Below, in pieces: positions 4,891-39,908 of a stretch of 39,908 nt of DNA. A program made the translations under genes and the position numbers. The stretch is from Eubacteriales bacterium (lineage in GTDB: Bacteria > Bacillota > Clostridia > Monoglobales > Firm-18), in the NCBI GenBank assembly GCA_028697835.1, contig JAQVDK010000010.1, forward strand, positions 1 to 39,908. The letters run 5' to 3'. Positions within the stretch are counted from its first letter, which is position 1, and the number at the start of each line of letters is the position of its first letter. The notes under the pieces were generated by a model. The model saw only the letters and a program-made list of their open reading frames with translations. It did no database searches and was not told the DNA's origin.

Positions 4891-5679
4891 TCAGGCTTCA
4901 CACACTGTTTGTGCTTTTATGCAGCCTTCAATTATGCCGGCAAAGTCTGATACTTTTAAGCTTGCTCCGCCTACTAAAGCACCGTCAATATCTGATTGTG
5001 TCATTTGCTCTTCTATGGTAGAAGGTTTTACGCTTCCGCCGTATAGAATGCGAATCGCATCAGCTGAGGCTTTGCCTGAAACTTCTTCAACAACGTTTCT
5101 AATCATTTTGATTACTCTGTTTGCCTCGATTGAATCACAAGTTTTGCCTGTGCCGATTGCCCAGATAGGTTCATAAGCTATAACGCTTCTTGCTATGTCT
5201 TCCTTTGAAATGCCTTCTAAAGCTGCTTTGATTTGGCTTGCGATATGAGAATCCGTTAACCCTTCTTCTCTTTGTTCTAAAGTTTCGCCGCAGCAAATTA
5301 TAGGAATAATATCAGCCGCTAAAATAGCTTTTGCTTTTTTATTAATCATTTCGTCAGTTTCGCTAAAGTATTGTCTTCTTTCGCTGTGTCCTATAATTAT
5401 GTAAGAACAGCCTAAATCTTTTAAAATATCAACCGAAACTTCGCCTGTGAATGCTCCTGAAGCTTCCCAATAGCAATTTTGAGCTGCAAGTTTAATGCAA
5501 TCGCAGGATAATATTTCGCTTACCGAAACTAATGCTGTAAAGACAGGTGCAATAACAACTTCGGGAAGAGAGTTCTCATCCATAGTGCATATTGATGTTT
5601 TTAATTCTTCCGTGAAAGAAACGGATTCCCCAACTGTTTTGTTAAGTTTCCAGTTTCCCGCAATAATAGGTTTTCTCAT
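4891..5679 (-). CDS. tpiA: Triosephosphate isomerase
   Basis: Interconverts dihydroxyacetone phosphate and glyceraldehyde 3-phosphate in glycolysis and gluconeogenesis, in the cytoplasm. TIM-barrel signatures are all present: AGNWKLNK (Asn9, Lys11), GHSERR at 97-102 (catalytic His98), AYEPIWAIGTGKT with catalytic Glu170 and the phosphate-gripping loop, and YGGSVKP and GALVGGASL near the C-terminus. The 262-residue length is normal. ATG 5679 follows GAGGAG by six bases. It is convergent with the NrtR-like gene, 45 bp apart, with no obvious terminator hairpin between them. Confidence 0.98.
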   Translation of the reverse strand: MRKPIIAGNWKLNKTVGESVSFTEELKTSICTMDENSLPEVVIAPVFTALVSVSEILSCDCIKLAAQNCYWEASGAFTGEVSVDILKDLGCSYIIIGHSERRQYFSETDEMINKKAKAILAADIIPIICCGETLEQREEGLTDSHIASQIKAALEGISKEDIARSVIAYEPIWAIGTGKTCDSIEANRVIKMIRNVVEEVSGKASADAIRILYGGSVKPSTIEEQMTQSDIDGALVGGASLKVSDFAGIIEGCIKAQTVCEA

Positions 5680-5752
5680 GATTTACTCCTCATATTTTGA
5701 ACATTATTTCTTTTATTTTAAATCAAAAAGAGGAATTCACAAGTTTTATTGT

Positions 5753-7612: not shown

Positions 7613-9184
7613 TTATTTCTTTTTATCCTGTGCTATTTCAGAGTCAAGTCTTAAAAATACCGGGTTTATTGTTTCTTTTGAGGCTATTTTGCCTGTTTTT
7701 AACTCACCCCATTCAAGCTCTTCAAGCTTTATATTTTTGATGATATCTTCAAAACCTAATTGGTTATAAATTTTTTGTGAAATATTAGGTATAACAGGGT
7801 ACAGCAAAATACCTGCAAAACGCATTGTTTCAAGCACGTTATAAAGAACTTTTGCGCATTCTTTTAACCCTTCTTCTGTTTTTGCAAGACTCCAGGGCGC
7901 CGTATCATTAACGTATTTGTTTGTATGGTCAACAAGCAAGAGAACTTTTTCTATTGCTTCGGTTATTTGGCAGCTGTCAAATTTTGCTTTAACGTCTTGT
8001 GCGGTTTGTTCTGCAAGTTTTGCTATTTCGCTGCTGCAGTCTGTAATTGCAAAGTCTTTTATCTCTCCGTCAAAGTATTTTAACAGCATACTTAAGGTTC
8101 TGTTTAAAAGATTTCCTAAATTGTTTGCCAAATCTGCGTTAACTTTCGCTTTGAATTCTTCGTCGCTGTAGTTGCCGTCTTTGCCAAAAGGAGCTGTTGT
8201 CATCAGAAAGTATCTTATAGAATCCGCATCTTGCAGCTCAAAAGCTTCCATAAGAGAAGCAGGGCTTATTACATTGCCTAATGATTTACTCATTTTGGTT
8301 TCATCTATTGTAATCCAGCCGTGGGCAAATATTGTTTTCGGCAGTTCTATTTCCATCGCCATCAAAAATCCTATCCAATAAATTGAATGGAATTTCAAAA
8401 TATCTTTGCCTATCATATGAATATCGCAGGGCCAATATCTGTTAAACAGTTCTTTGTCTTCAAGACAGCCCACACCTGTGATGTAGTTTGACAAAGCATC
8501 CATCCAGACATAGATAATCTGCTCCTCGTCATTTGGTACATCTATTCCCCATGTTACGGATTTTTTTGAGCGCGAAACACTTATATCTTCAATATTTTCT
8601 AATTGGTTTAATATTTCTGCAGCCCTGTATTCGGGAAGAATAAAATTCGGGTGGGTCTTTATGTGTTCGATAATTCTGTCTTTGTATTTAGATAATTTAA
8701 AAAAGTAGTTTTCTTCTTGTATTTCCTGAGGTTTTTTTTGGTGTGTCGGGCAGCAGCCGTTTTCGTCCAAATCACGGGCGGAGAGGAAGGCTTCGCAACC
8801 GTCGCAATATAATCCGGTATAAGAACTTTTATAGATGTCGCCTTTTTTTAACAGTTCTTTGAACATCCATTGGACGAGTTTTATATGGTCTTCGTCAGTG
8901 GTTCTTATGTACCTGTCGTAGTCTATATCTATTTTAGCCCAGGCCTTTTTAAACTCAACGCTTGTTTCATCGCAGTGTTCTTTTGGCGAAATCCCGCGCT
9001 CTTGTGCTGTTTTTTGGATTTTTATACCATGTTCATCGGAACCTGTCAGCAGAAATACATCTTTTCCCCTTTGTTTAAAATGTCTTGCAAGGATATCAGC
9101 TGCAATTTTTTCGTATGCATGTCCGATATGCGGCAATCCGTTTACGTAGTCGATTGCCGTTGTGATATAAAATGTTTCCGCCAT
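7613..9184 (-). CDS. metG: Methionyl-tRNA synthetase
   Basis: Charges tRNA-Met with methionine; class I synthetase. The HIGH motif is PHIGHAYE (His19-His22) and the KMSKS motif is ETKMSKSLGN near residue 300. A zinc-knuckle insert reads YCDGCEAFLSARD with a later CCPTH. The start is set at ATG 9184 (MAETFYITTAIDYVNG) because AAGAGG lies seven bases upstream; the 14-codon extension to 9226 would run through the promoter. At 523 residues it lacks the C-terminal EMAP/tRNA-binding dimerisation domain found in longer bacterial MetG. First gene of metG-ricT-dut. Confidence 0.97.
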   Translation of the reverse strand: MAETFYITTAIDYVNGLPHIGHAYEKIAADILARHFKQRGKDVFLLTGSDEHGIKIQKTAQERGISPKEHCDETSVEFKKAWAKIDIDYDRYIRTTDEDHIKLVQWMFKELLKKGDIYKSSYTGLYCDGCEAFLSARDLDENGCCPTHQKKPQEIQEENYFFKLSKYKDRIIEHIKTHPNFILPEYRAAEILNQLENIEDISVSRSKKSVTWGIDVPNDEEQIIYVWMDALSNYITGVGCLEDKELFNRYWPCDIHMIGKDILKFHSIYWIGFLMAMEIELPKTIFAHGWITIDETKMSKSLGNVISPASLMEAFELQDADSIRYFLMTTAPFGKDGNYSDEEFKAKVNADLANNLGNLLNRTLSMLLKYFDGEIKDFAITDCSSEIAKLAEQTAQDVKAKFDSCQITEAIEKVLLLVDHTNKYVNDTAPWSLAKTEEGLKECAKVLYNVLETMRFAGILLYPVIPNISQKIYNQLGFEDIIKNIKLEELEWGELKTGKIASKETINPVFLRLDSEIAQDKKK

Positions 9185-9214
9185 ATTTTTTCCTCTTAAT
9201 GCTCTGATGTGCCA

Positions 9215-9223
9215 ATTATAGCA
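9215..9223 (-). promoter_or_regulatory. Extended -10 promoter of metG
   Basis: Minus-strand TGCTATAAT (TG-n-TATAAT) is a perfect extended -10 box. No good -35 lies at the expected spacing, which extended -10 promoters tolerate. Predicted transcription would start near 9208, leaving a leader of about 25 bases that contains the AAGAGG ribosome site. Confidence 0.6.
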
Positions 9224-9224
9224 C

Positions 9225-9398
9225 AATAAAAAAGTGAGAGAAGGTGAAGAGATGAAGGAAGCTGAGAAGCTGGGAGTATGGGATTAGGGTGACGGGGAGT
9301 TTTTTGTCGGATTAAAACACAACATAAATCTTAGCTGCCTATTGGCGGATAATTTTATTTATGGTTCTATAGTATAAGTTACTAACCGGAATTTGTGC
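9225..9398. other. Intergenic region between metG and the 75-aa gene, with purine-rich tract
   Basis: The plus strand from about 9232 to 9300 is nearly all A and G, GC-richer than the rest of the intergenic DNA. It contains an 11-codon frame (ATG 9252, MKEAEKLGVWD) behind a GGTG/GAAG purine run. The AT-rich remainder (TATAGTAT near 9367) probably holds the promoter of the next gene. No strong fold was seen. Confidence 0.5.
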
Positions 9399-11835: not shown

Positions 11836-13152
11836 ATGAACAATAGGAATTGGATGTTAGCCTTTATCTTTGTGGTGATAATGACGGCTGCTTTTATTGT
11901 GTACAAGTTTCCTACAAAACTTGGTTTGGATTTGGTCGGGGGTTCTCGCCTTGTGCTTGAGGCGCAAACGACGGATACAATAGCAAAAATTACGCCTGAA
12001 ATGATGAACAGTTTGCAATTTGCTATTGAGAAAAGAATTAACTCTTTAGGGGTTGCAGAAACGGTTGTTCAAAGAAACGGCGAAAAAAGGCTTTTAGTTG
12101 AAATTCCTAATATTACTGACCCTGCTAAAGCTAAAGAATATCTCGGCGATACAGCGGAGTTGGAATTTAAAGAACTTAAATCTGACAGTAAAGACCCCCA
12201 GGGTGAGTGGGTTTCTACCGGTTTGACAGGTAAAGACTTAAATAAAGCGCAGGTTACAAGCAATCCCACCACCGGTGAATGGGTTGTTTCTCTTGAATTT
12301 AACGATGCAGGCGCTCAAAAGTTTGCAAAATTAACCTCTCGTTTGGTAGGAAAGCCTATGGCTATATTTTTCAACGGTGAACTTCAATCCGCACCGGTTA
12401 TCAGAGAACCTATTACAGGCGGTATGGCACAAATATCAGGCGGCGATAACGGCGGATTTAAAGCCGATGAGGCTCAAAAAATGGTGGATTTGTTAAATGC
12501 AGGCGCGCTTCCGGTGCCGGCTAAAATTATTGAAGAAAATTCCGTTGGCCCTACTTTAGGGGCTGATTCTATCGCTAAAAGCAAGATGGCAGGAATTGTC
12601 GGATTAGGGCTGGTTGTTGCCTTTATGTTTCTTATATACGGTATTCCCGGCTTGGTAGCTAACATTGCATTGGGAGTTTATGCTCTTATCGTTTTGGCGC
12701 TGTTTAAGATTATTCCGGTAACCCTTACATTGGCAGGTATTGCGGGCTTTGTATTAAGTATCGGTATGGCAGTTGATGCCAATATCCTTATTTTTGAGCG
12801 TACAAAAGAAGAACTTCGTTCGGGCAAAAGGATTTATACCGCGATAAATACCGGTTTTGACAGAGCATTTACAAGTATTTTTGATTCTAATATGACCACC
12901 ATTCTTACTTGTATGGTTCTGTATTTCTTAGGTACAAGTATAGTCCGGGGCTTTGCTTTGACTCTGGCAATAGGGGTTGCGGTAAGTATGTTTACGGCAA
13001 TTACCGTTACCAGAAGTTTTATGCACTTAATTTTGGAGCTGGAAACCTTCAGGCATCATAAACTTTTCGGTGTCAATCCGGATGAGATAGAAGAGGCTGC
13101 CAAGCAGCCTGATACAGCAGGTAAAAAAGCTAAATTAGGTGTTCTAGATTAA
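11836..13152 (+). CDS. secD: Protein translocase subunit SecD
   Basis: Partner of SecF in the SecDF complex, which uses proton motive force to pull preproteins across the membrane from the outside face. TM1 covers residues ~7-23, followed by LGLDLVGGSRLVLEA (family motif), a large periplasmic P1 domain, and five C-terminal helices (~250-400) containing VGPTLGADSI and GMAVDANILIFERTKEE. Length of 438 is on the compact side (shortened P1, as in Gram-positive and cyanobacterial types). GGAG precedes ATG 11836. secF follows after 17 bp. Confidence 0.96.
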   Translation: MNNRNWMLAFIFVVIMTAAFIVYKFPTKLGLDLVGGSRLVLEAQTTDTIAKITPEMMNSLQFAIEKRINSLGVAETVVQRNGEKRLLVEIPNITDPAKAKEYLGDTAELEFKELKSDSKDPQGEWVSTGLTGKDLNKAQVTSNPTTGEWVVSLEFNDAGAQKFAKLTSRLVGKPMAIFFNGELQSAPVIREPITGGMAQISGGDNGGFKADEAQKMVDLLNAGALPVPAKIIEENSVGPTLGADSIAKSKMAGIVGLGLVVAFMFLIYGIPGLVANIALGVYALIVLALFKIIPVTLTLAGIAGFVLSIGMAVDANILIFERTKEELRSGKRIYTAINTGFDRAFTSIFDSNMTTILTCMVLYFLGTSIVRGFALTLAIGVAVSMFTAITVTRSFMHLILELETFRHHKLFGVNPDEIEEAAKQPDTAGKKAKLGVLD

Positions 13153-18523: not shown

Positions 18524-18604
18524 ATGAAGAAAAGGTTAGCATTTACGCTCTCGGAAATCCTTATTTCTGTTGCTATTTTGGGCATTATTTGCCTGATTAT
18601 TTTT
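18524..18604 (+). other. Prepilin-like leader and transmembrane helix
   Basis: Short basic leader (MKKRLA), cleavage expected before Phe, Glu at mature position 5, then ~20 hydrophobic residues. Position -1 is Ala rather than the commoner Gly; prepilin peptidases accept Ala in some substrates. Confidence 0.85.
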
Positions 18605-21600
18605 TGGCTGCTTAACAATGAGAGAAACCAGACAGACTTGCTAAACAGCCATTATAACAAAGCTTACAATGATGTGTATTCGGCGGCGAAAGCTGTTGTA
18701 AACCTTGATAAACAAGGCGATTTAAGAGCGCTCACTACTGCAAATGTACTAAGAGACGCTTTTGAGAAAAGATTTAATATTGTAGATGATTTTGATACGA
18801 ATAACCCGCCTGATTATTTAACGAATGAAGACGGTATTATAGCCGAGAAAAAATTAAACCCAAATGATTTTGCAGGATTTACATTAGAAAACGGTACAGC
18901 CATTGCTTTCTCGAGAACACCGCTTGATACTTACCCAGATTCTATAGGTGTTGCGGTAGTTGATGTAAATTCATCTAAAGGCCCCAATAAAGGGCAAAAA
19001 GACCAGTTTATCCTGCCTATTTATAAGGATGGAATCAGAGATTCAGAGATTACTGACTTAGACAGAGACGGCGCCGGAGCCGATGATGTGCTGTCGTGTG
19101 CGTTGGTTGTTCCCGGAGTGGGCGAAGCTGAATGTTCAAACGGGGCCTATCCTAATTGTGAGTGTTCTTGTTTGCCTGATTACACTAAAATAGCGAGCGG
19201 AAGATGTGTTAAGGATTGTACCAGGTTTACTGATGCTGATTTTGCTTTACCGAGAGTGTACGATGCTACCCAGCCAGAATGTTACATCTGTTCTCCGGTA
19301 TTTAAAGCAGAATGTTTAAGCAACGGAGGCCGCTTCAATTCCTATGATTGTACTTGCAGCCAGTGTCCTTATCCTTGCCCTGCGGAACAAAAAGTAGCAG
19401 GATATTATGATTATACCTGCAGGTGCGGTTGTCCTCAAAATATGGTTTTAAACACAGATGGTGATTGTGAATGTCCTCAGACTTTTGAGACTGGTTGTTT
19501 GGCATCGTTTGGTGAATTTATTGAAGGAACTTGCGAATGTAATTGTGGTTATGTACGTCAGCTAAATGCTTCCAAAACCGCTTGTGAATGTCCGATAGAA
19601 CCTGATTTTCCTATAACTCCAGGTAAATGGTACGATATTACACAAGAATCCTGTTTATCAGATTGTACAACGGAAATCCCTGCAGGTTTTACTTTCGAGG
19701 AAAATGAAATTTATGACATTGCAGGGATTAACTGTAAATATACATGTGAAGACATAAAAGTTGCTAATATTGATAAAACCCAGTGTGTATGCCCAACCAC
19801 AAAGCCGCAAGGGATGGACTTAAGCGATACTAATAAAATTTATGACCCTTCTCAGCCAGCGTGTACAAAAGAATGTCTTACCCCGCTTGTGCCTAATAAT
19901 GAGAGGAACATGTGTATATGTTCTGAAACGAAACCGGGTGGTTTTGAGCTTACCGAGTCAGAAATTTATGACAGTTCTCAACCTTTATCGGGTTGTAAGT
20001 CTGCCTGTTCTTCGCCTAAAATTCCAAATGCTGCTAAAACCGTTTGTGAATGCCCTTCAACCGGACCTAATTCAGCGACAGGCTGTGATGGTATAAATTA
20101 CAACAGCAATACTTGTACCTGTACTCCTTGTTTGACGCCCAAAACTCCAAACGTAGCTAAGACCGCTTGTGAATGTCCTTCGACCGGACCTAATTCAGCT
20201 ACGGGTTGTGATGGTATAAATTACACCAGTGAAACTTGTACATGTACCGCTTGTAATGCGCCAAAGGTTCCGAATGCTGCCAAGACAAATTGTGTATGTC
20301 CGGATGGAACTCCTTATTGGTCAGGCGGAAATTGTGTTGCATGCCCTACAGGAACCGGATTTGTAAATAATCACTGTTCATTATCCGAATCGGCAGGAAG
20401 CTGTGCTGCAGGTGATTTTGCTGTTTTTAATGATCACACATTAGATGATGTTCGTAATAATTTAAGCGGCAGTTATTGTATGATTAATAATATTGATTTA
20501 AGCGAGAGCGGTTTTTTTGAACCTATTGGTGCGCTTGGCAGCGCTTTTACCGGAAAATTTAACGGTAACGGCTATGCTATTAACGGTTTAAAAATTAATA
20601 AGCCTTCGACTGACAATGTGGGTTTGTTCGGATATGTTTCAGGTTCATCATCCGTAATTAAAAACGTTGCATTAATTGGTGTTAATATAACAGGTCAATC
20701 CAGTGTTGGAGCTGCTGCGGGTTCAATACGTAACGGAGCTAAAATTCAGAATGTTTATGCTACAGGTACAGTAGGCGCTTTGGATTTTGTAGGCGGCTTG
20801 GTCGGAATGGCGGTAGATAATGTAATTTTGTCATCAACTTATACTGATGTAACAGTTTCCGGAGCTACTGCAGGTGGTTTAGTCGGTTCAAACCAAAGCA
20901 ATTCAATTATTCGCAACAGCTATACCGTAGGAACAGTTACAGGCTCAATCAGTGCAGGCGGTTTGATAGGTATAAACCAACTGGACTCTCAAATTCAGAA
21001 CTCTTATTCCATTGCTGCGGTTAACGGTTCTGCACCGAATAAAGGCGCTATTTACGGTTGGAATACAGATAATGCCACTGTAAGTAATGTATATTGGGAT
21101 AAGACAAAAGTAGCTTCAGCCGGCGTTAACGATGTTGGCGCTGCCGCTCATACTAATGTCATCGGTCTGTTGACAGGACATTTGAGTATGACTCCTACTA
21201 CTAAAATTTATGCAGGTTGGCTGGAAAGCGCCTGGTGTTTTAATTGTGATTCAAGACCTGTGTTAAAAAACATGCCGAGCGGTGCGCCATCCACTGATGT
21301 TTGCGATGCATTGGATGCTTGTCCTTGTTCTACATGGGCTGATTCTGCCTGTACGAATTCTATGGGTGTGTTAGCCGGAGATTGCGCTTGTGCTTGCAGC
21401 GCACCTATGGTTTCTGTAAACAATTATACAGAATGTGCCTGTATTTCCGACGCTCAATCTGTTTGTGACTCAAGCGGCGGTATTTATATTGATGATGGTT
21501 TGTGTACCTGCTCTTGTTCAGGTTATAAAGTTTTATCCGCAGCCAAGACATCTTGTGTTTGTGATGTTAACGCGTTAAAAGCGGGCTGTAAGGCCGACGG

Positions 21601-24600
21601 AATGTTATATAATGAACCTTCTTGCACCTGCAGTGCGTGTCCTTCTCCTAAAGTATTGTCAGAAGACGGTTTATCCTGTCAATGTCCATCTGACAGCTGC
21701 GCAACAGACGGCAGCGAAATAACTAACACTGAAGACTGCAGCTGTTCAAGCGTTTGTCAAGTTGACGAAGCTTGGGATCCTAGTACATCTTCTTGTGTTT
21801 CTACTCCAGGCCAAGGTAGCGCAGCTACTTGTTTAGATCCTGATTCCGTAAAAATTTCCACCGTTGCCGAGCTTAACAATACAAGAAATAATTTAGCTGG
21901 TAGCTATTGCTTGGTAGCTGATATAGATTTACAAAATGCTTCTTGGGTATCACTTGGCGGTATGGATGTTGATACTATGGAAGACCTACCTTTTACAGGC
22001 AGGTTTGATGGTAATGGGCATATAATTAAAAACTTAAGTATTGCTTCTTCCGGCTATTATGCAGGTTTCTTCGGTGCTACACAAAATGCGACAATTTCGC
22101 GATTGGGGTTAGAAAATATATCATTTTCAAGTTCAGGTTATTCAACAGGAGGATTGGTAGGTAGTGCCTCTACGGGTACGTTGATTGACCAATGTTATGT
22201 GTCTTCAGGTAACATTACTTATGGAGAATCAGCCGGTGGATTGGCAGGAAGTCTTTACAATGCTACTATTCAAAATTCTTATTCTACCGTTACACTTGGA
22301 GAAGGTTGTCAGCTTGCAGGCTTGGTAGGATCTATGTCGAGCAGTTCTGTTATAAATTCTTATGCAACAGGAGCAATGTCAGGATATTCTTATTGTGACG
22401 GTTATATGGGGTTAATCGGATCCAATTATTCTGGTACTATAACAGCTTCGTATTGGGACAAAATTACTTCCGGTACTACAAGCAGTAACGGAGGTACAGG
22501 TAAAACAACTGTAGAAATGCAGGTCGCACGTACAGATTCTAATTTATACTCAACATGGGATGAAGACATTTGGTGTTTTGAAGCCGGTTCTTATCCACAG
22601 TTGAAAGCTGTAATTGGTACGAATAATATTTGTGTAAGCTGTCCGATTTCTTCTCCAGCATACCAAGATGGTAGTTGTGTAACGTGTTTAGAGAAATATG
22701 GTTCAGCGAGACCTATAAACAACAATGGCAAATGTGAAGCTTGTCCGGGTGAAACACCAAAATGGAACGGAACAGAATGCGAAGCTTGTCCTACCGGAGC
22801 AGTTTGGAATGGCAGTGCATGCGTATGTTTGGGTGGTCAAACTCTTGTTGACGGTGCTTGCGCTTGCCCCGCCGAAAAACTATTGTGGGTTTCAGGTGAT
22901 AGTTCCTCTACTCTGTTATTACATTTTGACGGAGAGAATAATTCTAAAGAAATTGTTGACAGTTCTCCTAATAATTTGCCTGTTACTGTTTTGGGTGGCG
23001 CTAAGTTGTCGGCTGATAAGAGCAAATTTGGCGGCAGTTCACTTTATTTGGATGGTGTTGATTCTTACCTGCAAATAGATAGCCCAGATAAATTTGATTT
23101 TGCCGACAAGGATTTCACAGTTGATTGGTGGGAATATCGAATTGGTACCGGTACTTTTATATCAACCAGTATTAGTTCTGATTACAGCGGACTGCTATTG
23201 GGACATTCAAGTAATAAAGTTTGGATGAGTTCTCAGAGAAATAGTTGGAATATTTTAGGTGATTGGGCCTATGGCGATGACATTAAGAATGAATGGGTCC
23301 ACCGAGCATTCCAGAGAAGAGGTGATACCTTAACTGCATATCAAAATGGGGTTCAAAAAGTTACAACTACTATTAACGGTACAATTATGAACGGTAACAG
23401 GTTATTAATCGGTAAGTATAAAGATGATGCGCCCGATTATTTGAAAGCTTATATTGATGAACTTCGTATAAATAAAGGTACTGCGCTATATAGTGATAAT
23501 TTTGATTTATCAACGTCTGCTTATGGCGGTTATTGCACAGCAGAATGCCCTGCTTCTGCCCCTATTAGAATTGGTAATACTTGTTATAATCAACAGGATG
23601 CTAATGAAGAAGAATGCTCAGAAACACCCGATACGCCTGTTTATAAAGATGGAGAAGGTTGTGTAACCTGTTATGAATTCAACGCATTGACGCCTGTATT
23701 TGATGAAACGACAGGATTATGCACGTATTGTGCTCAAAATCAAGAATGGAGTACAGAAACTAATACGTGTGTAAATTGTCCTGCTAATAAACCTTATGCG
23801 GATCCTGTTACGCGTTTATGTTCAGAATCACCGGCAGCGAGTTGTTTGGATTCTAACGCAATTACGATATCGAATAAGACAGAGTTATTGGGAATAGTTG
23901 ATGACACAACGAACTATGGAGGTTATACATCAAGATTAGCTAAGCTTAATCTCAACTATTGTTTAATCGCAAATATAGATTTAGAAAACGCCTCTTGGGC
24001 AGGCATAGGCTATATGGACTATGATACTATGGATACATATTATTATACGGGTAGGTTTGACGGAAACGGTTTTGTTATTAAAAATGTAAATATTGCAACT
24101 TCAGGTTATGAATCGGGTTTCTTTGCTGCCACTCAAAATGCGACAATTACACGCTTGGGATTAGAAAACCTATCTTTTTCAAGTTCAGGTTATTCAACAG
24201 GAGGATTGGTAGGCAGTGCATCTACGGGTACGTTGATAGATCAATGTTATGTAACAGGTTCAATTACTTATGGTGATACACAAGGAGGATTGGTAGGAAC
24301 CCTTTACAATGCTACTGTTAAAAATTCTTATTCTACCGTTACACTTGGAGAAGGTTGTCAGCTTGCAGGTTTAGTAGGATATGTTGCAAGCAGTTCTGTT
24401 ATAAATTCTTATGCAACAGGAGCAATGTCAGGATATTCTTATTGTGACGGTTATATGGGGTTAATCGGATCCAATTATTCTGGTACTATAACAGCTTCGT
24501 ATTGGGACAAAATTACTTCCGCTACTACAAGCAGTAACGGAGGTACAGGCAAAACAACTATAGAAATGAAGGTTGCACGTACAGATTCTAATTTATACTC

Positions 24601-27600
24601 AACATGGGATGAAGACATTTGGTGTTTTGAAGATGGTTCTTATCCTAAGTTAAAAGCCGTAATCGGCACGGATAATCTTTGTGTATCTTGCCCTCTTGAT
24701 AAGCCTGCGTACGTACCGCCTAATTGTGTGACCTGCTTTGAAGCACACGGCAATGCTAAACCTATTAACAACAACGGAAAATGTGAAGCTTGTCCTTCTG
24801 ATATACCGAAATGGAACGGCACAGATTGCGAAGCTTGTCCGACAGGCAGCGCCTGGAATGGGGCAGAGTGTGTATGTGCAGGCGGTTCCGAGTTGATTGA
24901 CGGGGTTTGTACTTGTCCTGCGGATAAACCTTATTGGGTGCCTGGTGATAATTCAATGACGTTATTAATGCATTTTGACGGTCCAAATAATTCACAAGTG
25001 TTTATTGAAAGTTCGCAAAATGCGTTTACTTCGTCTGTGTACGGCAATGTTAAAATATCCACCGATCATAGTGTCTTTGGCGGTTCAAGCGCCTACTTTG
25101 ACGGTGATGGCGATTATCTTCAAATTGATAGTACTACGGCATTTGATTTTGCTAATAAAGACTTTACCGTTGATTGGTGGGAATATAGGATAAATGGAGG
25201 AACCATAGTTTCTACAAGTCCTACCAATAATGGTTATAGCGGATTATTATTGCCTTATAGCGCTAATAGAGTTTATATGGGCTCTTCTATTAATAGTTGG
25301 AACATTATGAGCGATTGGACGTATGGTTCTGATATAAGGAATCAATGGGTTCATAGAGCACTTGTCAGAAAAGATAACCTTATTATTGCATATACTAATG
25401 GTACGCAATCAGGCACACAAACTATTAGCGGTTCTTTATACAATGGTAACAGGCTTCTTATCGGTATGTATAGAGAAGGTGATAGAAGTTATTTCCAAGG
25501 TTATATTGATGAATTAAGAGTGAATGTAGGTAAAGCTAAATATTCTAAAGATTTTGATTTAATGAGTATTCCCTATGGCGGGGTTTGTGTGGCGGAATGT
25601 CCTCCCGAAAAACCTATAGCATTGAATGGTAACTGTTATGATATATATGAGCTTTGTAAAGATTATGCACCTGATAATCCTGTTTATAAAGACGGCGAAT
25701 GTACGACTTGTGCGGAAGGAACTTCAATCTATACTCCGTTTTGGAATGATGAAAAGAAAAACTGTCAACCTTGTCAGGGCGGTTCTGCCTGGGATGGTAC
25801 AGGATGTTCTTGCCCAGAGGGAACTTCTTATAACGGCACATATTGTGTGGTTAACGGTACGGGTGAGTTCTGTGGTGCCGGCGATGTAGTTATTTCCAGT
25901 GCGGCTGATTTGGCTAAAATAGGATTGGATTCGGATTATCCCTTGAATGGAGCTTATTGTTTAATTACAGATATAGATTTGGCATCAGATACTACCCTGC
26001 CTGAGACACACACTTCTTCTGAGGGTTGGCGCCCTATAGGTGATTATGGACGTAATAGCAGTCAATTTACAGGTAGATTTGATGGTAATGGGCATATTAT
26101 TCGTAATTTGACAATCAATCGTTCGGGACATAACTATCAAGGTTTATTTGGCTGGCTTTCGGGTAACGCTGTTGTTACCAAGTTGGCTTTAGAGAATGTA
26201 AATATTAAGGCTTCAGGTAGAGAGCATGTCGGTGGTATTACGGGAAGAATGAACAGCAGCGCTAATATTAACCAGAGTTATGTTACAGGCAGTATTAGCG
26301 CCAGACACTATGTTGGAGGTATAGTGGGTTATCAGGATGACAGCTCATCTGTTTATAATTCATATACTAACGTAAGTCTTTCCAACACAGGCAGCCATGT
26401 CGGCGGTATTGCCGGTTGTTACCCGAGGAATATTGTCAATTGTTATGCCCTTGGCAGGATAATAGGTAATGATACCTACATGGGCGGTATCGGCGGATAT
26501 AGCGCTACCAATGTCAGTGATACTTATTGGGATATCTTAACTACGGGCGTTACCACCAGTTATGGCGGTACAGGTAAAACTACTTCCGAAATGCAGGTAT
26601 TAAGAACACTTGCCGGTTTATATAAAAATTGGTCCGGTGATACCTGGTGTTTCTCTAAAAATGATTATCCCCGTTTAAAAGCTTTCAGCAATTCAACTAA
26701 CTATTGCAACTCTTGCTCTGCCGAAGAGCCTGCTTATGACGGCGAAACCTGTTCTGCCTGCGCTGTATTGTACGGCGATGATAAACCTTATAATAATAAC
26801 GGAAAATGTGAAGCTTGTCCTGATTATATGCCTTTGTGGAACGGTACAAGGTGTACTGTTTGTCCCGAATATTCTTCCTGGAACGGCAGCGAATGTGTTT
26901 GCGGCAGTGATACAGTGATGCTTGGCGATAATACCTGCGGATGTCCTGCTGAAAAACCGCTCTGGTATAACGGAGATACTTCTGCGACCATGTTATTAAC
27001 CTTTGACGGTGAAAATAATTCCAAAAACTTTACAGGATATTCTACATCCGACATTACTGTTACGCCGTACGGTGATGCTAAAATGTCTTCCGCTCAAAGT
27101 AAATTCGGCGGCACCAGCTTGTATTTGGATGGAAGCGGTGATTATTTGAAAGTTTCCGTGCCTGCTGCTTTGAAGTTCGGGTCAGGTAATTTTACGTTTG
27201 ATTGGTGGGAGTACAGAACAGGCTCGGGTACAGTATTTTCTACTTCACTATATAATACCGGTGATGGCAGCGGAATTATGTCCGGTTACGCCTCGGCTAT
27301 TAAACTGTATATGGGTAATGTCGGGAATAGTTCCTGGAATTTACTAAGCGATTTTACTGCAGGAACATATACGACAGGCACGTGGGTTCACCGTGCTATT
27401 GTTAAAGACGGTACTCAGGTTCGTACTTATCAAGACGGCGTATTGTATGCAACAGTTTCCGACAAAACAGGTGAAGTTTACAACCAATATAATATTAATG
27501 ATTTATCAATAGGTATGCACAGGTATGGTGATACAAATTACTTTAACGGTTATATTGATGAGTTCAGGTTAACTAAGAATAAAGCTCTTTATTCAGGAAA

Positions 27601-30600
27601 CTTTACACCTGCAGATTATTCTTATAAGCCCGGTTGTGTGGCAACTTGTCCCGTATTTGCGCCTGCCCTTATAGGTAAGGTTTGCTATCCTCAAGATGAG
27701 GCTAATGATATTATGTGTTCTACAACGCCTGCTAACCCTATTTATTATAATGAAAGTTGTACTACTTGTGCAGCGGCTACAAGCGGAGCTAAGCCTATTT
27801 GGAATGCTAATGATAAAACATGTATAGCTTGTCCCGACTACACTCCTCTTTGGGATGGTACGCAGTGTGTGGCTTGTCCTGCAGGTACATTCTGGAATGG
27901 CAGCAGCTGCAAGTGTCCCGGTACTACAGAGTTTATAGACGGCGTTTGTAAATGTCCCGCTGACAAACCTTTGCAAGCGGATTACGATACTCAGGTAGTT
28001 TTATTATTGCATTTTGATGGTGAGGACGGTACTACAGCATTTACGGATAGTTCTATTAATAACTCTACGGTTGTTAATAGCGGTGATGTCAAACTTTCAA
28101 AAACTCAGTCGAAATTTGGCGGTACAAGCGCCTACTTTGACGGAAATGGCGATTATTTAACTATTACTGATTCTGATAAGTTTAACTTTAGCAATAAAGA
28201 CTTCACGGTTGACTGGTGGGAATACAGAATGAACACAGGCGCAAGCTTCACTACTCAAAAAAATAACGGGGTTGCCGCCCTGCTTGCGGGTTATGATTCT
28301 GTTTACTTATATATGTCAGGTAATACAAGCTACTGGAATTTGCTTGATCGTTGGACTTTTGCTAATGATCTTAGAAATACATGGGTGCATCGTGCAATTG
28401 TCAGAGATGGCAGTACAATAAGAACTTATGAAAACGGCGTAAATTCCTGGTCTGCCAATATAGGAACCGGCAGTTTATATAACGACGGTAATATTAAAAT
28501 CGGTATGTGGCACCCCAGTGATACCAAATACTTCCAGGGTTATATTGATGAGTTCAGAGTTACTATAGGTAAAAAGCAATATTCTTCTAACTTTACACTT
28601 GCTACGAATACTTACGGCGCTACTTGCAATACAACTTGTCCTTCGGATTTGCCTGTACTTATAGATGGCAAATGCTACACTCAAAAGCAAGCTAATGAGT
28701 TTTGTGAAGACCCCGCCGCCCCTGCTTATAAAAGCGGAGAAGGCTGTGTTGCTTGTCATCAGTTTAATGCTCTGACACCTGTATTTGATGAAAATACAGG
28801 ATTGTGTACATATTGTCCAAAGAATCAGGAATGGAATTCAGATGAAATGAGCTGTGTTGACTGCCCTGCCGATAATCCGTTTACTGACCCTGTTACTCAC
28901 TTGTGTTCAAATTCGCCCGCGGGAACTTGTTTGGATTCTGATGCTATTACAATATCCACAAAAGCACAGTTGTTGGCGATACTTGATAATACTACAAATT
29001 ACGGCGGCTATACTTCCAAGAATGATAAGCTTAAGCTTAATTATTGCTTAATTGCCGATATTGATTTGCAAAATGCCGGCTGGAGCGGTCTTGGCGGGAT
29101 GGATTATGATATCGGGGATTACATATATTATACAGGAAGATTTGATGGTAATGGTTTTGTAATTAAAAATGTTAACCTTAACGGTTCGGAATATTTAGGT
29201 TTCTTTGGCGCTACTCAAAATGCCACAATTACACGTTTAGGTTTGGAAAATATTTCTGTTTCAGGATGGGGTATGCTCACAGGGGCTCTGGTTGGTTATG
29301 CCGTAAGTACAACTATCGACCAATGCTATGTTTCAGGCGGAAGTATTCCTTCTGGAGAAACAGCAGGCGGGCTTGTAGGGCAGACTAATAATTCTACCGT
29401 AAAAAATTCTTATTCTACGATTGCAGTTGGCGAAGGCTGTCAGATTGCGGGCCTTGTAGGATATATGTACAACAATTCTAAAACAATAAATTCTTATTCA
29501 ACCGGAGCTGTAGGCTATAGTTGGTGTTATGATAATTATTTTGGTTTGATTGGTTATAACAGCGGTTCTTCAATTACAAATTCTTACTGGGATACTGAAA
29601 CATCAGGCGCTGCAAGCAGTAATGGCGGTACAGGAAAAACTACCGTTGAAATGAAGAATGTGCCTGACAGCTCGATATACGTAGGTTGGGATGAGGGTAT
29701 ATGGTGTTTCTCTAATTCCGCATATCCTAAATTAAAAACTATTAGGAACAGCAGCGATCATACTTGTCCTACCTGTCCTGCGGAGACTCCTGTTTACAGC
29801 GGCGGTAGTTGTACGACCTGCGAAGCAGCATACGGCACTGCTAAACCTGTTTATAAAAACGGTACATGTCAGGCGTGTCCTTCCTCTACTCCTGCCTGGA
29901 ACGGTACTTATTGTGAGTCCTGTCCGATGGGCGCAACCTGGAACGGTGCGGAATGCGCTTGTGCCGGCGGAGCTGTATTGCAGGATGATGTATGTGTATG
30001 TCCTGTGGAAAGTCCGCTGTGGGCAAACAGTATCCCTTGGACTCAGCCGATTTTTACGAGCAATACTAACGGTTCATACACAATTACAACAAGTCACGAA
30101 ACACAGCCGGCATGGTGGGCTTTTGATGGCGATAAAACAACAAACGACAGATGTTGGTGGACGAATAATATTGGTATTAGTACTTCTAATCCTGCTTGGA
30201 TTACTTTCTATAGTCCTAAAAAGTTATACTTGAAGTCTTACTATATAAGAAATGAACACACTAGCCCTGAAAACCTTAAAAATGCTATTATACAGGGTTC
30301 TAATGATAATACAGCTTGGACTGATTTATATACAATCAGCGATAGACCAAATACCGGTACGTATGAAGAATCTTATAAAGTTAACGCAACCACAGCGTAT
30401 AATTATTTTAGGTTATATGTAATAGGCGTTTATAATTCAGGGGTTTCTATTCAGGAAATTTCTATCGATGCAGAAGAGTTTTTAGGCTGCGTAGCAGAAT
30501 GTCCTGCTGATAAACCTATAGTTATCGATAATATATGTTATTCTCAAGAAGAAGCTAACGAAGTACAGTGCGGCGGTTATCCCGATACGCCATACTGGAA

Positions 30601-33600
30601 TGGTACTGATTGTGAAGCTTGTCCTACAGGGGCTGATTGGGATGGTATACACTGTGAATGTCCTAAAACAATGGTGGCAATAGACGGCGCGTGTGTTTGT
30701 CCTGAATCTAAGCCTTTGTGGGTTAACGGCGGTGATAATAATACAGTTCTTTTCTTTGACGGAGAAAGTAATCTTGATAATCAAGGTCAGGCTGATGTTA
30801 CTGTTACACCTACAAATATAACGTATTCTGATTCGGGATATATTGGTAAGGCATTTAGCTTTAACGGGTCAAGTAGTTATATTACTATTAATAACCCATC
30901 CGGTTGGTTTGATATCAATAAGGATTATACGGTTGATTTTTGGGTTAAGTTTAATACAACATCTGTTCAAGCATTGTTTGGCAGTTCAGCCGATTGGAGC
31001 GGAGTTGGGGCTATTGCTTTCCATAACGGAAGCCGTATAAGTTATTTTGCTTCCAATACAGGCAATAGTTGGAATATTATGAATGAAAAATACGGCTCTA
31101 TTCCTATTACTGCGGGCAAATGGTACCACGTTGCTTATGTGCGCAGCGGTAGTACTTTATACAGTTTTATTGACGGCAATTTAGATTGGAGCCAAACAAT
31201 ATCAACAGAACCTTCCTTCGGTGCTAATACATTTAGAATAGGTATTTGGGGAAATAACGGTTATTATCTCAACGGTTTAATCGATGAGTTTAGAATATCA
31301 GATGTTGCAAGACATACAACCAGCTTTACTCCTCCTGCGCATTCATTAAGCGGCGGATATTGTATTGTAGAATGTCCTGATACAGCGCCTATTCAGATTG
31401 GTAATATTTGTTATAATCAACCAGATGCCAATGTTGCAGAATGTTCGGACACGCCTGATACACCTGTTTATAAGAATGGAGAGTGTATATCTTGTCCTGA
31501 GTATTCATCTTTAACACCGCTGTTAAATACTTCTACGGGTTTGTGTACAAAGTGTCCTGATAATCAGGAATTTAATCCTGCTTGGGAAAGCGATGGTAAT
31601 GTTTGCGTTCCTTGTCCTGCCGATAAACCTATAACAGACGCTAACGGTATTTGTACCAACAGTACTTGTGAAGATATCAAAAATCCTAACTTGGTAATGA
31701 TATCTACTAAAGCTGAATTGCTTGGTATTATTAATGATTCTACTACTTTAGGCGGTGTAACTTCTAAAGCTGCTAAAGCTCAATTAAGTTATTGTTTAGC
31801 AAATAATATTGATCTTGAAGGCGCCACTTGGACAGGTGTTGGCGGTATGAACTATGATACATATGAAGAAATTCCTTTCACCGGTAAATTTGACGGAAAC
31901 GGACATATTATAAAGAATATGACTATCCAAGGCGAATATATGACTTCGGCATTTTTCCCTTCTGCCGTAGGTGCAAAAATCAGCCGTTTAGGTATTGAAA
32001 ATGCAACCGCAAGATATGGTACGTATAACGCTATATTGGTTGGTTCTGCAACAGCCGGTACCGTGATTGACAGCTGCTATGTATCGGGTTCTTCTCAGGA
32101 TGGTGATACTATGGCAGGACTTGTCGGCTTTCTTTATAATTCAACCGTTAAAAATTCATATTCTATGGCTAATGTCAGCAGCGGATGCCAGCTTGGCGGT
32201 TTAATAGGTTATGCATATTCCGGCAGTGTAATTCAAAATTCTTATTCGACAGGTAATATATCCAACTCCTGGTGTGATGACCCAAGAGGCTTCATCGGAT
32301 ATTGTTATGATTGCAGCGTGACCAATTCCTACTGGGATACTGTTTCTTCCGGAACCGCAAGTAGTAGTGGCGGAACAGGTAAAACTACCGCACAAATGAA
32401 AACTTTCCCGAGTGATTCTGTTTATACAAACTGGAGCGAAGATATATGGTGTTTCTCTGCCGCCGATTATCCCAGATTGAAAGTTCTAAACGGCAGTAGC
32501 AGCGATTTTAATATTTGTAATGATTGTCCTTTAGCAACACCTGTGAAGAAAGATGGTGTTTGTGTAACTTGTTTGGAAAATTATGGGTCTGCGAAACCTA
32601 TAACTAATAACGGTAAATGCGAACCTTGTCCTTCTGATGCACCGAAATGGAACGGCACATCTTGCGAATCTTGTCAATCAGGAAGTGTTTGGACCGGCTC
32701 GGAATGCGCTTGTTCCGGCGGAGCTGTACTGCAGGATGATGCTTGTGTATGTCCGGCTGAAAAGCCTTTGTGGACAACGGCTCCTGATTCTAATACGTTG
32801 TTATTATTGCATTTTGATGGAAATATAAATGATGCTGCCAATAACTTTACGCTTACAAATACCGGTTCAACTTTTGTTGATGATGCTAAAATTGGAAATC
32901 AGGCAATTAATATATCAGGAGGAAAGTATCTTAATTTCCTTGATAGTACAGGATTACTGGATTTTGGAACGGATAAAGACTTTACTGTTGAATTTTATGT
33001 AAAAACCCCTTCTCATACAACTTCCTACCCTCACTTGATTGCAGGTCATTCGTGGTCTGATACTTGCGCTAAAGTACAAATCCATCATTCTTCCAGATCA
33101 GGTGTGGTGTCATTAGAGAATTATAATAACAGCTTTATTATAAACGGTAATACCCCTACTGCCCAAGATAAATGGATTCATATTGCCGTTGTTAGAAAAG
33201 GCAGTACATTTATGATTTTTGAAGATGGTGTTCTGGCTAACACTGTTAATTCGGGTGCAGGTATTAATTTCTCATATGGCGGACAAACTGACATGGGCTA
33301 TACTACGTGGGATGGTGGCAGTGGATATTTTAACGGTTTGGTTGACGAGTTTAGAGTTTCTAAAGTAGCCAGATATGAATCAAACTTTACCCCTCCGATT
33401 GCGCAGTTTGGTGGTGAATGTGTTGCTGAATGCCCTCCAAGTGCGCCTATTCTAATAGAAAGCAGATGTTATTCTCAGGAAGAAGCTAACAAACGTTGTG
33501 TCCAAATTGATGTTAATAAGCCTTTCTATGATACGGTTTCGGGAACTTGTAAGTCTTGTATAGATGCTACAGGCGGCGATAAACCTATTTGGAATGCAAC

Positions 33601-36600
33601 AAAAGGTCAATGTGAAGAATGTTCAAACGGTAAAGTTTGGAGCGGCATGGCTTGTGCTTGTCCTGACGGTACATCTTATAATGGAGCAAACTGCACAGTT
33701 AACGGTACAGACGGTTTCTGTGAGGCCGGCGCTGTAGTTATATCCTCAATAAATGACTTAAACAATATAAGAAACGGCTTGGCAGGCAGTTACTGTTTGA
33801 TGAGGGATTTGGATATGGCAGGCGTTGCCTGGGTGCCTATTGCAGAAGCTCAAGCTTATAACCAAAATCCTTTCACAGGCAGATTTGACGGTAACGGTCA
33901 TATTATTAAAAACCTCACTATAAACAGAACGTCCAGCGGCGGAGCAGCTTTATTCGGAGGTATTAACAGCAGTAATTGTTACATTAAAAACTTAGGGTTA
34001 GAAAATGTTGATGTAACCTCCAGCGGACATACTGTGGGCGCTCTTGTAGGTACATGTAACTTTGAAGCTGTGGTTGAAAATGTTTACGTTACCGGTAGTG
34101 TTTCAGGTTCTACCACGGTAGGTTGTATTATGGGTTATAACGACAGATGTAAGATAAAAAACTCTTATGCTGATTGTACTGTTAACGCTACAGCCGGAGA
34201 TGCTGCAGGTATAGGTATAGCAGGCGGCGGATGCTGCGGAGCTGAAGTTTATAACAGTTATTCACTATCCAGGGTCACGGCTACAAGTTCTCGCGGGCCT
34301 GTCAATATTCAGGGTTCTGCCAACTATAGCTATTGGGATAGTGTTGTGAGCGGTATTACTTCCGGTGCAGGCGGCGGTACTGCCAAGACTACAGAGGAGT
34401 TGCAGGTAGTAAGAACAATTGGTAATTTATATAGTAATTGGTCTGAAACTTATTGGTGCTTTAATCAAGGCGAGTACCCAAAATTAAGGCAGATGTATTC
34501 TTCTTATAATAGATGTGTATCTTGTCCCGTTGAAAAACCCGAATGGAGCGGGCTTGATTGTATCACTTGTGCGCAAAAAGACCCTGTCAAACCTTATAAC
34601 AATAACGGTGTATGTTCCCGTTGTCCCGAAGAAACTCCAAGATGGGATGGAACCGCTTGTGTAGCTTGTCCTGCAAATACTACATTATCTAACGGACAAT
34701 GTGTTTTAACCGGCACTATAGGTACTTGTAGTGAAGGTATGATTGCTATTACCAATCCTTATGATTTGGATGACATAAGAGATAACCTCGATGGCGAATA
34801 TTGTATGCTTAATTCTATTGATATGTCGGTTTATGACTACTTTACTCCTATAGGGTCTGCGGCAACTCCGTTTACAGGTGTATTTAACGGCAATGGAAAC
34901 GTTATTAATAATTTGAATATAGTTGAGACACGAGAACCTAACGTGGGATTTTTCGGTTATTTATCAGGAGTTGATACTATAGTTGAGCATGTTGGTTTCT
35001 CTAATGTATCTGTTATCGGTAAGAGCCGAATAGGTGTTGTTGCCGGCACTAACTCAGGCGCTCTTATACAATATGTTTACGTTGACGGTGTTGTTGAAAA
35101 TGATGCTATGGCTACAGACGGTTATGGCGGTGCTATTGTTGGTATGGCAATTAACGGTGCAAGATTATATTTCGCTGCTGCTAATATTTCATCAAGAGGC
35201 TTAAATATTGGCGGTCTTGTCGGTTTAAATCAATTTGGTTCTATTATTAAAGATTGTTATGTCAAAGGCAATATTTATGCCAGAGGGTTATATGCCGGAG
35301 GTATTGCAGGGTTGAATGATAATAATTCTCAAATAATGAATTGTTATTCTTCTATTGATATACAAGGAGTTGCTTCTTATAAGGGAGGATTATTTGGCAG
35401 AAATAACGCGGATTCCAAGGTTGCTGCCTCACATTGGAACATTGATAAAATTACTGATGCCGGAGATAATTTAGCAACAGGTGAAAACTACTATAAAAAT
35501 GAAGGTTTAGCATTTGTTCAATTCCAAACTACACCGACGGCATTGGTTTACCCGGGATGGAAGTTTGCGACGCCGCAAGATGAATGGTGCTTCCATTGCG
35601 GCGGTTATCCTGTACTTAAAAATATGCCGGCAAACGCTCCTGATTGGAATGATTGTGATGTGTCTTGTGAAGAATGTCCTCCTGATGCCTGCTTGACTGA
35701 CGGTAGTGAAGTCGTATTAGGCGATTGTTCATGTATGTTGGTTTGTGATCCGCCGGGAATTTGGAATATTGAACAAAATGGATGTTCAACTTGTGTAATC
35801 AAAGACTATACAAAACCTTACTATAATTATGAAGTTGCAGATTGCACAAAATGCCCTGATGAAACACCTTATTGGACAGTTAACGGCTGTAAAGAATGTC
35901 CTGTTGGCGCAGTTAAACAAGACGGTATTTGCGTAATGGCATCTGATACAGAATATTGTGAATCAGGTATGATAGCTGTTTCAAACTTTAGTGATTTGGC
36001 AAGAATAGGGGTTGATTTGCCGCTCAACGGTCATTATTGTTTATTAAATGATATTGATTATGCCACAGATTACACCACTCCTGAAACACATTCTACCTCC
36101 TGGATTCCTATAGGCAATGTTGTAAGTCCGTTTACAGGTGTTTTTGAAGGAAACGGTAAAGTTATTGGAAATTTAGAAATTAATAACTCTGACGCAGCTA
36201 AACCACAACAAGGGTTATTCGGTTATGTCAGCGGCACTAATACCAAAATACGTAATTTAAAAATGACAGGTGTGGATATTAAGAATAATTTATCTGTAAG
36301 TAATGCTTATACCGGTGCTATTGCGGGTGTTATAGAAAACAGCATAATTGTAAATTGTAAAATAACAGGCTCTATTTCAGGCGGCAGCTCAGGTGCAGGT
36401 GCTATTGCAGGATTTAGCAGCGGCAGTTTGAGCAACAGTTATTCAGAAGCAAATGTTACGAATGTTATTGCAGGCGGCTTGGTTGGTTATTCAACCGGTA
36501 CAATTTCCAACTGCCGTGTTACATCAAATGTTATCTCAGAAGCCGGTCCGACTTCTGCTGCAGGCGGTTTAGTAGGTATTCAACAAGGCGGCTTGATTGT

Positions 36601-39600
36601 AAACAGTTATGTCAGCGGTACTGTTGAAGGTACTAATGTCGGCGGCGCTATAGGTATACAACAAGAAGGTAATATTAACAGTACTTATGCAAAAAATGAT
36701 ATAACAGCTGTTGGTACATCTCCTTGTGCAGGCGGATTTGTAGGACGTAAGGAAAATGGAGCAATAACGAATACTTATGCACTGGGTGATGTCTACGGTG
36801 CGGGTAGTTTGGGAGGTTTTGCAGGCTGCGTAACCAGTTTGGGTACAATTGTAAATTCATATTGTATAGGCGAACTTACAAAAACTTCAGATGAAGATGT
36901 TGTCGGCGGCTTTGTTGCTTACCTTGAAGAAGGTAACGAAAATTCCGTTCTTAACTCCTATTGGGATACGCAAACTTCGGGTGTTGATATAAGTGCAGGC
37001 GGGCTTGGCAAGTTAACTGCAGAAATGAAAGTGTTAAGAACTACAGCTAATCTGTATAAGAATTGGGATGACACGGTTTGGACGTTCTCTACTACTAATT
37101 ACCCGAGATTAAGAGAAGTTGCGGGACAGGGAGAAAGTGAAGGTGTGCATTGTCCTTCTGATTCTACAGGTGAATATCCTTCTTGTGATTGTAATTCTTT
37201 AGAAAAACAATACAATAGATTTGATAATGTTTGTGAATGTCCGAGTGCTTGTGCAGAGCCAAGAACAAAACAAGATTCACTTACCTGTGCTTGCTCTTGT
37301 CCTACGGGCTGCCCATTTACAAAAATTCAAGACCCTGTTACTTGTTCTTGTACTTGTCCTGCCGATAGTTGTGCAACTGACGGTTCTCAAACTATGAGTA
37401 CGTATGATTGCAGTTGTACCGATGTTTGTAGTGCTCCTCAAATATGGGATGTAGCTACCAGTACTTGCAAATTATGTTACGAAGTGAATGTTCAAAAACC
37501 ATACTATAACCCCGATGTTAAGAACCCTAATAATAATGAAGGTACTTGTCAAATTTGTCCCGAAACCCAGCCTTATTGGATTGATGCTACTAAGGAATGC
37601 GCAGAATGCCCTGACGGTTCTGCTAAAAAAGAAGGCGAAACTACTTGTAAGATAAATTCATCTGTATTTAAGTGTACTACAGGCATGATTCCACTTGTGA
37701 ATGCTGCTGATATCGCCAAAATAGGCAGAGCTGATACTCATCCTGCCAACGGTTCTTACTGTTTAATGAATGATATAGATTTAGCAGATCCTACCATACC
37801 GTCCTCTCATTCAGGCGAAGACGGATGGGATCCTGTAAGTTTTTCAGGAACGTTTGAAGGTAACGGCAGAATTATTTCCGGCTTGAAATCCAGAAGATTA
37901 TACCGTGATAATTTGGGATTATTTAGTGTATTAACGGGTCAAGTTAGAAATCTTGGGCTTGAAAATGTTGATATTAATGGTCAAAGCAGGGTAGGTGCAA
38001 TTGCAGGAACTCAAAGTTCAGGCACTATCTCTGATTGTTATGTTACCGGTGTTAAGGTTGCGGGGACATCTTACATTGGAGGTGTTTTAGGCTACAAAGA
38101 AGGCGGTAGTATGTATAGAGCTTATTCTGCTATACCTATTGTTACTTCCAGTACAGCAACAAAAGGAGGGTTAACGGGAAATAATGCAGGCGGTGTTAGT
38201 GACGCCTATTGGGATAAGCAAGTTACCGGTGTTTTGGTGGGAGATTCAGCTCAGGCTAAAATGACTGAAGAGATGCAAATCCTAAAAACAGCATATAACC
38301 TGTACAAAAACTTCCCTGAGGATATTTGGACGTTCTCTACAGAGGATTATCCCAGATTTTACGGCGCAAGAGTAGAAAATGGAATTCAACAATGTATTAG
38401 TGCAACTTGTTTGTCTGATGGTTCTCAGGTTATTGACTACTCTGATTGCAGTTGCGGCAATATTTGTATATTCCCGCAAATTTGGAATCCTACTTTAAAA
38501 GAATGTGTTAATACATGCCCTGAAGGCGCTGAATATAGAGAAGGATACGGTACTTGTCGTTATACAGAACGAACAGGAGATTGTGAAGTTAATACAATTG
38601 CCATCCAAAATGCTTTTGAATTGGCGCAAATTGGTATTAACCCTAATTATCCGCTTAGTGCAAATTATTGTTTGTCAAATGATATAGATTTGAAAAATGA
38701 CGGCTCTATTCCTGATACGCACTCTACAGATGAAGGTTGGATTCCTATAGGTTCATTTAGCGGTAATTTCTACGGCAACAGCCACGTTATTAAAAATCTG
38801 TATATAAGAAGACTATTTAGTGACAACCAGGCTCTGTTCGGTTATTTGAACGGCGGTACAATACAAAAGCTTGGCATTGAAAATGCTGATGTAAGAGGAT
38901 ATAGTAATGTCGGCGTTTTAGTCGGTCGTATTCAATCAGGTACCGTTTCAAATACTTATGCGCTTGGTAAAACAGAAGGTGCTTCTAATATTGGCGGCTT
39001 GGTGGGCTACCATAGAGGCAATATAAATAATTCTTATGCGGCTGTACAAATTATAACTTCAAGTATTAATAAAGGCGGTTTGATAGGCTATCACGAAACA
39101 GGCGGCTATTCAAACAGCTACTACGATAAAGAGATGGCAGGAGTGGATTCCGGCAATCCCGATGTGGCTAAAACTACAGCTGAAATGAAGGTTGTTAAGA
39201 ATGCATATAATTTGTACAAAGATTACAGTGAAGATATATGGACGTTCTCTTCCTCAGATTATCCTAAATTTATAGGCAGCAGAAAATCAGGTGAAACAAC
39301 TTTATGCCCAAGCACTTCTTGTGCAACGGACGGCTCTCAAGTGATTGATTATTCCAATTGTACTTGTGCGGATATGTGTTTAGAACCGCAAGTTTGGGAA
39401 AAAGATACAAAAACTTGCGTAGACTCTTGTCCTGATGGTGCGGATTTGGTGTATGGCGTATGTAAGTTTGCGATGGATATGGGGCGCTGCCTGACAGGCA
39501 TGATTCCGATCCAAAAAGCTTCAGAATTAGCCAAGATAGGACGTACAGAGCTTTACCCTCTCAACGGCAGCTATTGCTTAATGAACGATATAGATTTGGC

Positions 39601-39908: not shown

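Follow-up and report, generated by a model that had tools for sequence, protein, structure and literature searches.

Type IV pilins onto which lectin, vWA or other modules have been grafted are described and widespread (PMC8179133, PMC9934059). A single survey holds more than 1,200 such modular pilins in 264 architectures, with the lectin-like PF13385 among the frequent modules and IPR011493 also seen, and its most extreme case is a 12-copy protein of 860 residues (PMC8179133). PilC of S. sanguinis is a pilin of this kind, and its ConA-like lectin module binds glycans (PMC9934059). The locus described here begins like a prepilin and continues for thousands of residues, and an earlier note, made from the letters of the DNA, had seen in it either a giant adhesin of a pilus tip or pseudopilus, or else a new use of prepilin processing for tethering large surface proteins. 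The latter idea is not supported, since modular pilins are already known (PMC8179133, PMC9934059), and as the combination of a pilin signal with adhesive modules is therefore not new, it is rather the size of the protein that stands out.

The giant frame and its N-terminal signal

The window, by which we mean the whole stretch of DNA analysed, is the entire 39,908-nucleotide contig C34 of G000, a 1.79-Mb, 95%-complete assembly of 116 contigs. From the ATG at 18524 a frame of 7,128 codons runs without a stop off the end of the contig (Table 1), just as had been claimed for a stop-free frame of 21.4 kb and more than 7,100 residues. This is no chance frame, since its codon usage is like that of the other genes of C34 (RSCU correlation 0.89) and since its paralogous GLUG modules differ mostly by synonymous changes, the dN/dS of 0.13-0.28 in the four measurable pairs implying that the copies evolve as protein under purifying selection. 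We can conclude that the gene is real and that its protein exceeds 7,100 residues, and if a second contig of the assembly, C1 (L022, 14,364 bp), is taken together with C34, the full length is probably about 9,000 residues.

The protein begins with MKKRLA/FTLSEILISVAILGIICLIIF, that is MKKRLA-FTLSE followed by a hydrophobic helix, and the features of a class III signal, namely a short charged leader ending in Ala, a hydrophobic tract and Glu5, are all present, in agreement with what had been read from the sequence. In the genome search MKKRLA-FTLSEILISVAILGIICLIIFWLL is the sole match in G000 to PF07963 (N_methyl), at 27.0 bits (E 9e-6) against a cut-off of 21.2; with residues 1-233 as query the score is 22.8 bits, and with longer pieces it is slightly below the cut-off. 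The stricter TIGR02532 (GFxxxE) is just missed (score 14.9, cut-off 16.3), perhaps on account of an Ala rather than a Gly at -1, either of which is allowed as the final residue of a class III leader (PMC10191384). A single-sequence model of the putative pilin head has a helix of about 55 residues (9-63) followed by four strands, but its pLDDT is 48, with only residues 10-30 or so confident, and a fold search with it, which at this confidence is hardly meaningful, gave no match. A search of 60 genomes and of plasmids and viral contigs likewise gave no sequence relatives of the N-terminal 239-264 residues. The window's part of the protein has no further convincing membrane segment, a marginal one at residue 750 lying inside a GLUG module, and a lipoprotein anchor was rejected, since inspection by eye gave no lipobox at Cys23.

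The balance tips slightly towards the gene encoding a giant modular type IV pilin-like adhesin, for which cleavage, display and binding would follow the pattern of pilins, and the former of the two proposals thus stands as the best reading in the form of a prepilin-type multi-module adhesin. It is favoured by the N_methyl score with Glu5, by the long helix that the model places behind the leader, as is the case in pilins, by the fact that the module classes PF13385 and IPR011493 are already known on pilins (PMC8179133), by the likeness of the GLUG modules to 3n6z in profile and fold, by coding selection and contig-native codon usage, and finally by the misbinning of the contig, through which the objection that the bin is without PilB/C/D/Q falls away. 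The low-confidence head with neither fold match nor relatives and the score for TIGR02532 speak against it, as do the proteins of C34 and C1, among which no pil gene was found in the families scanned, and the searchable literature, which gave us no example of a protein so large that is carried on a pilin.

The main rival, which is less likely, takes the prepilin-like helix for a signal anchor that stays uncleaved and has a motif inherited or coincidental, so that the giant would be tethered directly in the cytoplasmic membrane and never enter a filament. The Ala at -1 together with the sub-cut-off TIGR02532, the putative nature of the head, the lack of pil genes on the two contigs in the families scanned and the extreme size would all agree with such an anchor. 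However, FTLSE with its Glu5 is kept as in true prepilins, a Glu within the hydrophobic tract is needless for an anchor, and the predicted helix runs on past the membrane segment as it does in pilins.

Modules of the giant and their probable continuation on a second contig

Pfam matches along the giant are to PF07581 (GLUG, for which we take IPR011493 to be the InterPro entry), to PF05342 in its beta-helix part only, to PF13385 (LamG_3, six domains) and to the discoidin-like PF22633 (one domain), and twelve GLUG modules were counted in the window. Along with 350 Cys, or 4.9% of the window's part of the protein, these matches bear out the GLUG, LamG, discoidin and Cys-rich modules named in the earlier note, and GLUG, LamG and discoidin-like domains are extra C-terminal domains of a kind not specific to pilus biology. 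The GLUG module is modelled as a beta-solenoid and resembles the solved structure 3n6z both by profile (E 1.3e-22) and by fold (Foldseek E 4.8e-7), which together with IgA1 proteases in their N-terminal part comes closest to it among solved structures. An identity as M26 IgA1 protease was nonetheless rejected, since no M26 catalytic domain is found in C34 or C1 and the PF05342 matches are to the N-terminal/GLUG end of the profile (up to 250/250). An Rfam search gave no match.

Table 1. Features of the giant gene and misbinning markers in the window
Feature	Position	Strand	Remarks
TIM, misbinning marker	4891..5679	-	
MetG, misbinning marker	7613..9226	-	
SecD, misbinning marker	11836..13152	+	
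Giant ORF, 7,128 codons	18524..39907	+	3' end past contig; codon usage and dN/dS
Class III (prepilin) signal MKKRLA-FTLSE and hydrophobic helix	18524..18604	+	PF07963, 27 bits
Putative pilin-like N-terminal region, residues 1-167	18524..19024	+	model, low confidence, pLDDT 48
Cys-rich region, no Pfam match	19100..20383	+	
GLUG module 1	20384..21265	+	
GLUG module 2	21815..22603	+	beta-solenoid model, pLDDT 81
LamG domain 1	22913..23527	+	
GLUG module 3	23867..24652	+	
LamG domain 2	24962..25579	+	
GLUG module 4	25865..26677	+	
LamG domain 3	27005..27630	+	limits approximate; end motif at residue 3010
LamG domain 4	28001..28618	+	
GLUG module 5	28952..29734	+	
Discoidin-like (F5_F8_type_C_2) domain	30119..30397	+	PF22633
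LamG domain 5	30746..31357	+	
GLUG module 6	31700..32479	+	
LamG domain 6	32801..33415	+	
GLUG module 7	33701..34486	+	
GLUG module 8	34709..35617	+	
GLUG module 9	35945..37111	+	
GLUG module 10	37667..38359	+	
GLUG module 11	38576..39271	+	
GLUG module 12, cut by contig end	39482..39907	+	presumed to continue on C1 (L022, 14362 down to 8689)

An extension of the contig, as had been called for, very probably leads to C1, which has the same GLUG/Cys modules on its minus strand, that is on the strand expected for a continuation, and which is open at its very end. Its frames comprise 710 aa from the open contig end, a break near 12,235 and then 1,187 aa to a presumed stop of the giant; the single frame break (about 12,230-12,250) is either a sequencing or assembly error or a real mutation. 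The top matches of C1 to the last modules of C34 are 48-54% identical, and the other genes of C1 resemble those of C34 in codon usage (0.92) and in tetranucleotide signature (0.69). No exact overlap of the two contigs was found. When SDVSGL at the end of C34 and KGGLVGY at the start of C1 are placed by eye in the register of module 11, about 23 residues, or some 70 nt, are missing, but this estimate is not firm, since automatic alignment set the start of C1 one GLUG repeat earlier. It is very likely that C1 carries the 3' part of the giant gene, with intervening contigs possible. If C1 is indeed the continuation, the protein ends with ...WSLVAGQYPKLIGVGGQ-stop, a C-terminus in which GLUG is the sole family found and in which neither an LPXTG-type sorting signal nor an autotransporter beta-barrel was found. 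Elsewhere on C1 a glycogen debranching enzyme gene adjoins one, at 5295-5864 (+), whose product is homologous to bacteriophage T4 gp30.3 (PF08010, E 9e-39).

It is quite improbable that the assembly made one apparent giant out of repeats from several GLUG/LamG genes, for although the longest exact internal repeat (133 bp) comes near short-read length and the junction of C34 and C1 lies inside a repeat module, there is but a single exact repeat that long and the module copies are otherwise well diverged, and furthermore the frame is intact through all the modules and its three thirds are alike in codon usage.

The contig and its host

The lack of a prepilin peptidase in the genome had been named as something that would refute the prepilin reading, and formally this is what G000 presents. 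In profile searches that were positive in control genomes, the assembly gave neither PF01478 nor PF00482 nor PF00263, and its matches to PF00437 all stayed below the cut-off and were of Walker-A size, so that G000 is without PilB, PilC, PilD or secretin. The objection is however inapplicable to the giant, since C34 does not belong to the bin. G000 contains two copies each of MetG, TIM and SecD, one of which lies on C34 and the other on C106, C63 and C96, respectively. Of the copies native to the bin, MetG shares 82% identity with those of the same-family genomes G002 and G004, TIM 75-76% with those of four genomes of the family and SecD 70-78% with those of four, some others of the family being further off (G003 SecD 34%), while the C34 copies are foreign, with 41-46% (MetG), 45-52% (TIM) and 31-38% (SecD) identity to the genomes compared and no family preference, and in a MetG tree the C34 copy has a branch length of 5.48. 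In tetranucleotide composition C34 and C1 have median correlations of 0.42-0.48 in a comparison with 21 other contigs, nearly all of which have 0.62-0.75, the exception being the 5-kb C76 (0.50), and the codon usage of the giant correlates at 0.89 with the genes of C34 and C1 but at 0.42 with the bin. From the duplicated foreign genes, the tetranucleotides and the codon usage it follows that C34 and C1 are misbinned in G000 and are pieces of another organism, and the missing pilus genes of the bin therefore say nothing about the host of the giant. The stated contamination of G000 is 0.02% in spite of these two contigs and of three housekeeping genes duplicated by misbinning.

That the contig is truly from the bin, and that a pilus-less Clostridia-like bacterium keeps one orphan giant prepilin, is hardly credible, since the missing pilus families and the low stated contamination would suit such a view but the duplicated, foreign MetG, TIM and SecD, on account of which it was rejected, and the outlying tetranucleotide and codon usage common to C34 and C1 do not. 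Taking the absence of the pilus machinery at face value would indeed have led to a striking but false "orphan prepilin", and the case may serve as a warning of binning artefacts.

Flagellar fliK and fliJ are present on C34, and the owner of the giant is a bacterium with flagellar genes other than the organism of the bin. As a guess, from the general impression given by the genes of C1, it may be a Gastranaerophilales-like gut relative of cyanobacteria, a group in which one termite-gut genome has flagellar genes along with pilA/B/C/D/T (PMC5877343). Upstream of the giant, at 16432-17649 (+), lies the gene for a protein of 405 aa which matches the GntR winged helix (PF00392) in three separate stretches, and three such DNA-binding heads in one chain look unusual.

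Proposed display and comparison with known systems

By analogy with modular pilins, and going by the anatomy of the sequence, the N-terminal helix of the giant would be put into the inner membrane by SRP/Sec and cleaved after Ala6 by the prepilin peptidase of the true host, upon which a type IV pilus or pseudopilus would incorporate the pilin-like module, in all likelihood at its tip. The modules would then reach outward as a stalk with many low-affinity carbohydrate- or protein-binding sites, by which it may attach to mucus, fibre or similar surfaces. More tentatively, a type IV filament may display, from one pilin-sized module, a single chain of about 9,000 residues with some 16 GLUG modules and 6 LamG domains.

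GLUG proteins occur in 25 of the 60 genomes searched (the bin with its relatives), and outside the bin their open frames reach 3,433 aa. The search for similar giants in relatives, which had likewise been suggested, yields long GLUG arrays as in the giant but, among the starts in view, not its prepilin start. In the Clostridia-like relatives G013, G019, G020 and G029 the GLUG open frames have 2,069-3,433 aa, with, where the start is in view, mostly ordinary Sec-type N-termini (by eye), and unlike the giant they are lower in Cys and without N_methyl. Frames of 2,884-3,433 aa without an N_methyl match occur on G019:C10, G013:C25, G029:C72 and G020:C72 and C73, and all N_methyl hits in the bin's relatives are in frames of at most 727 aa. 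When contigs were searched with residues 1-1000 of the giant, 17 GLUG-type loci came up in named genomes from other phyla; among their readable starts, judged by eye, none looks prepilin-like and most look Sec-type. A prepilin start is therefore not simply typical of GLUG proteins, and on a GLUG giant it is unusual within this sample, which leaves out the clade of the true host. Viral LamG loci were rejected as relatives, since by eye they resemble phage structural proteins and are unrelated to the pilin start.

Among described systems, the M26 IgA1 proteases and their relatives (3n6z, 6xja, 7uvk) have a GLUG beta-solenoid homologous to that of the giant in sequence and fold; the giant, however, has a prepilin rather than a Sec start, and its GLUG modules, unaccompanied by the protease domain, alternate with LamG domains and Cys-rich linkers. 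The PilC/PilY1 tip adhesins are, like the giant as proposed here, large, modular and presented on type IV pili, but PilY1, with its C-terminal beta-propeller, does not belong to the pilins (PMC8179133), and no propeller family was found in the giant. Closest are the modular type IV pilins, such as S. sanguinis PilB with its vWA module and PilC with its Ig and ConA-like lectin modules, which share with the giant the class III signal and C-terminal adhesive modules foreign to the pilus, PF13385 and IPR011493 included. The giant differs from them in its putative pilin head and in its length of at least 7,128 aa against 860 aa in the extreme case. If the reading of a displayed chain is true, it is about ten times that case and makes of the pilus a carrier of a very long multivalent adhesive cable. 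A giant both real and pilus-borne would take the modular-pilin idea an order of magnitude further and raise the questions of how Sec and prepilin peptidase handle such a chain and of what the cable binds, and it would thereby represent an extreme case of the known modular-pilin design.
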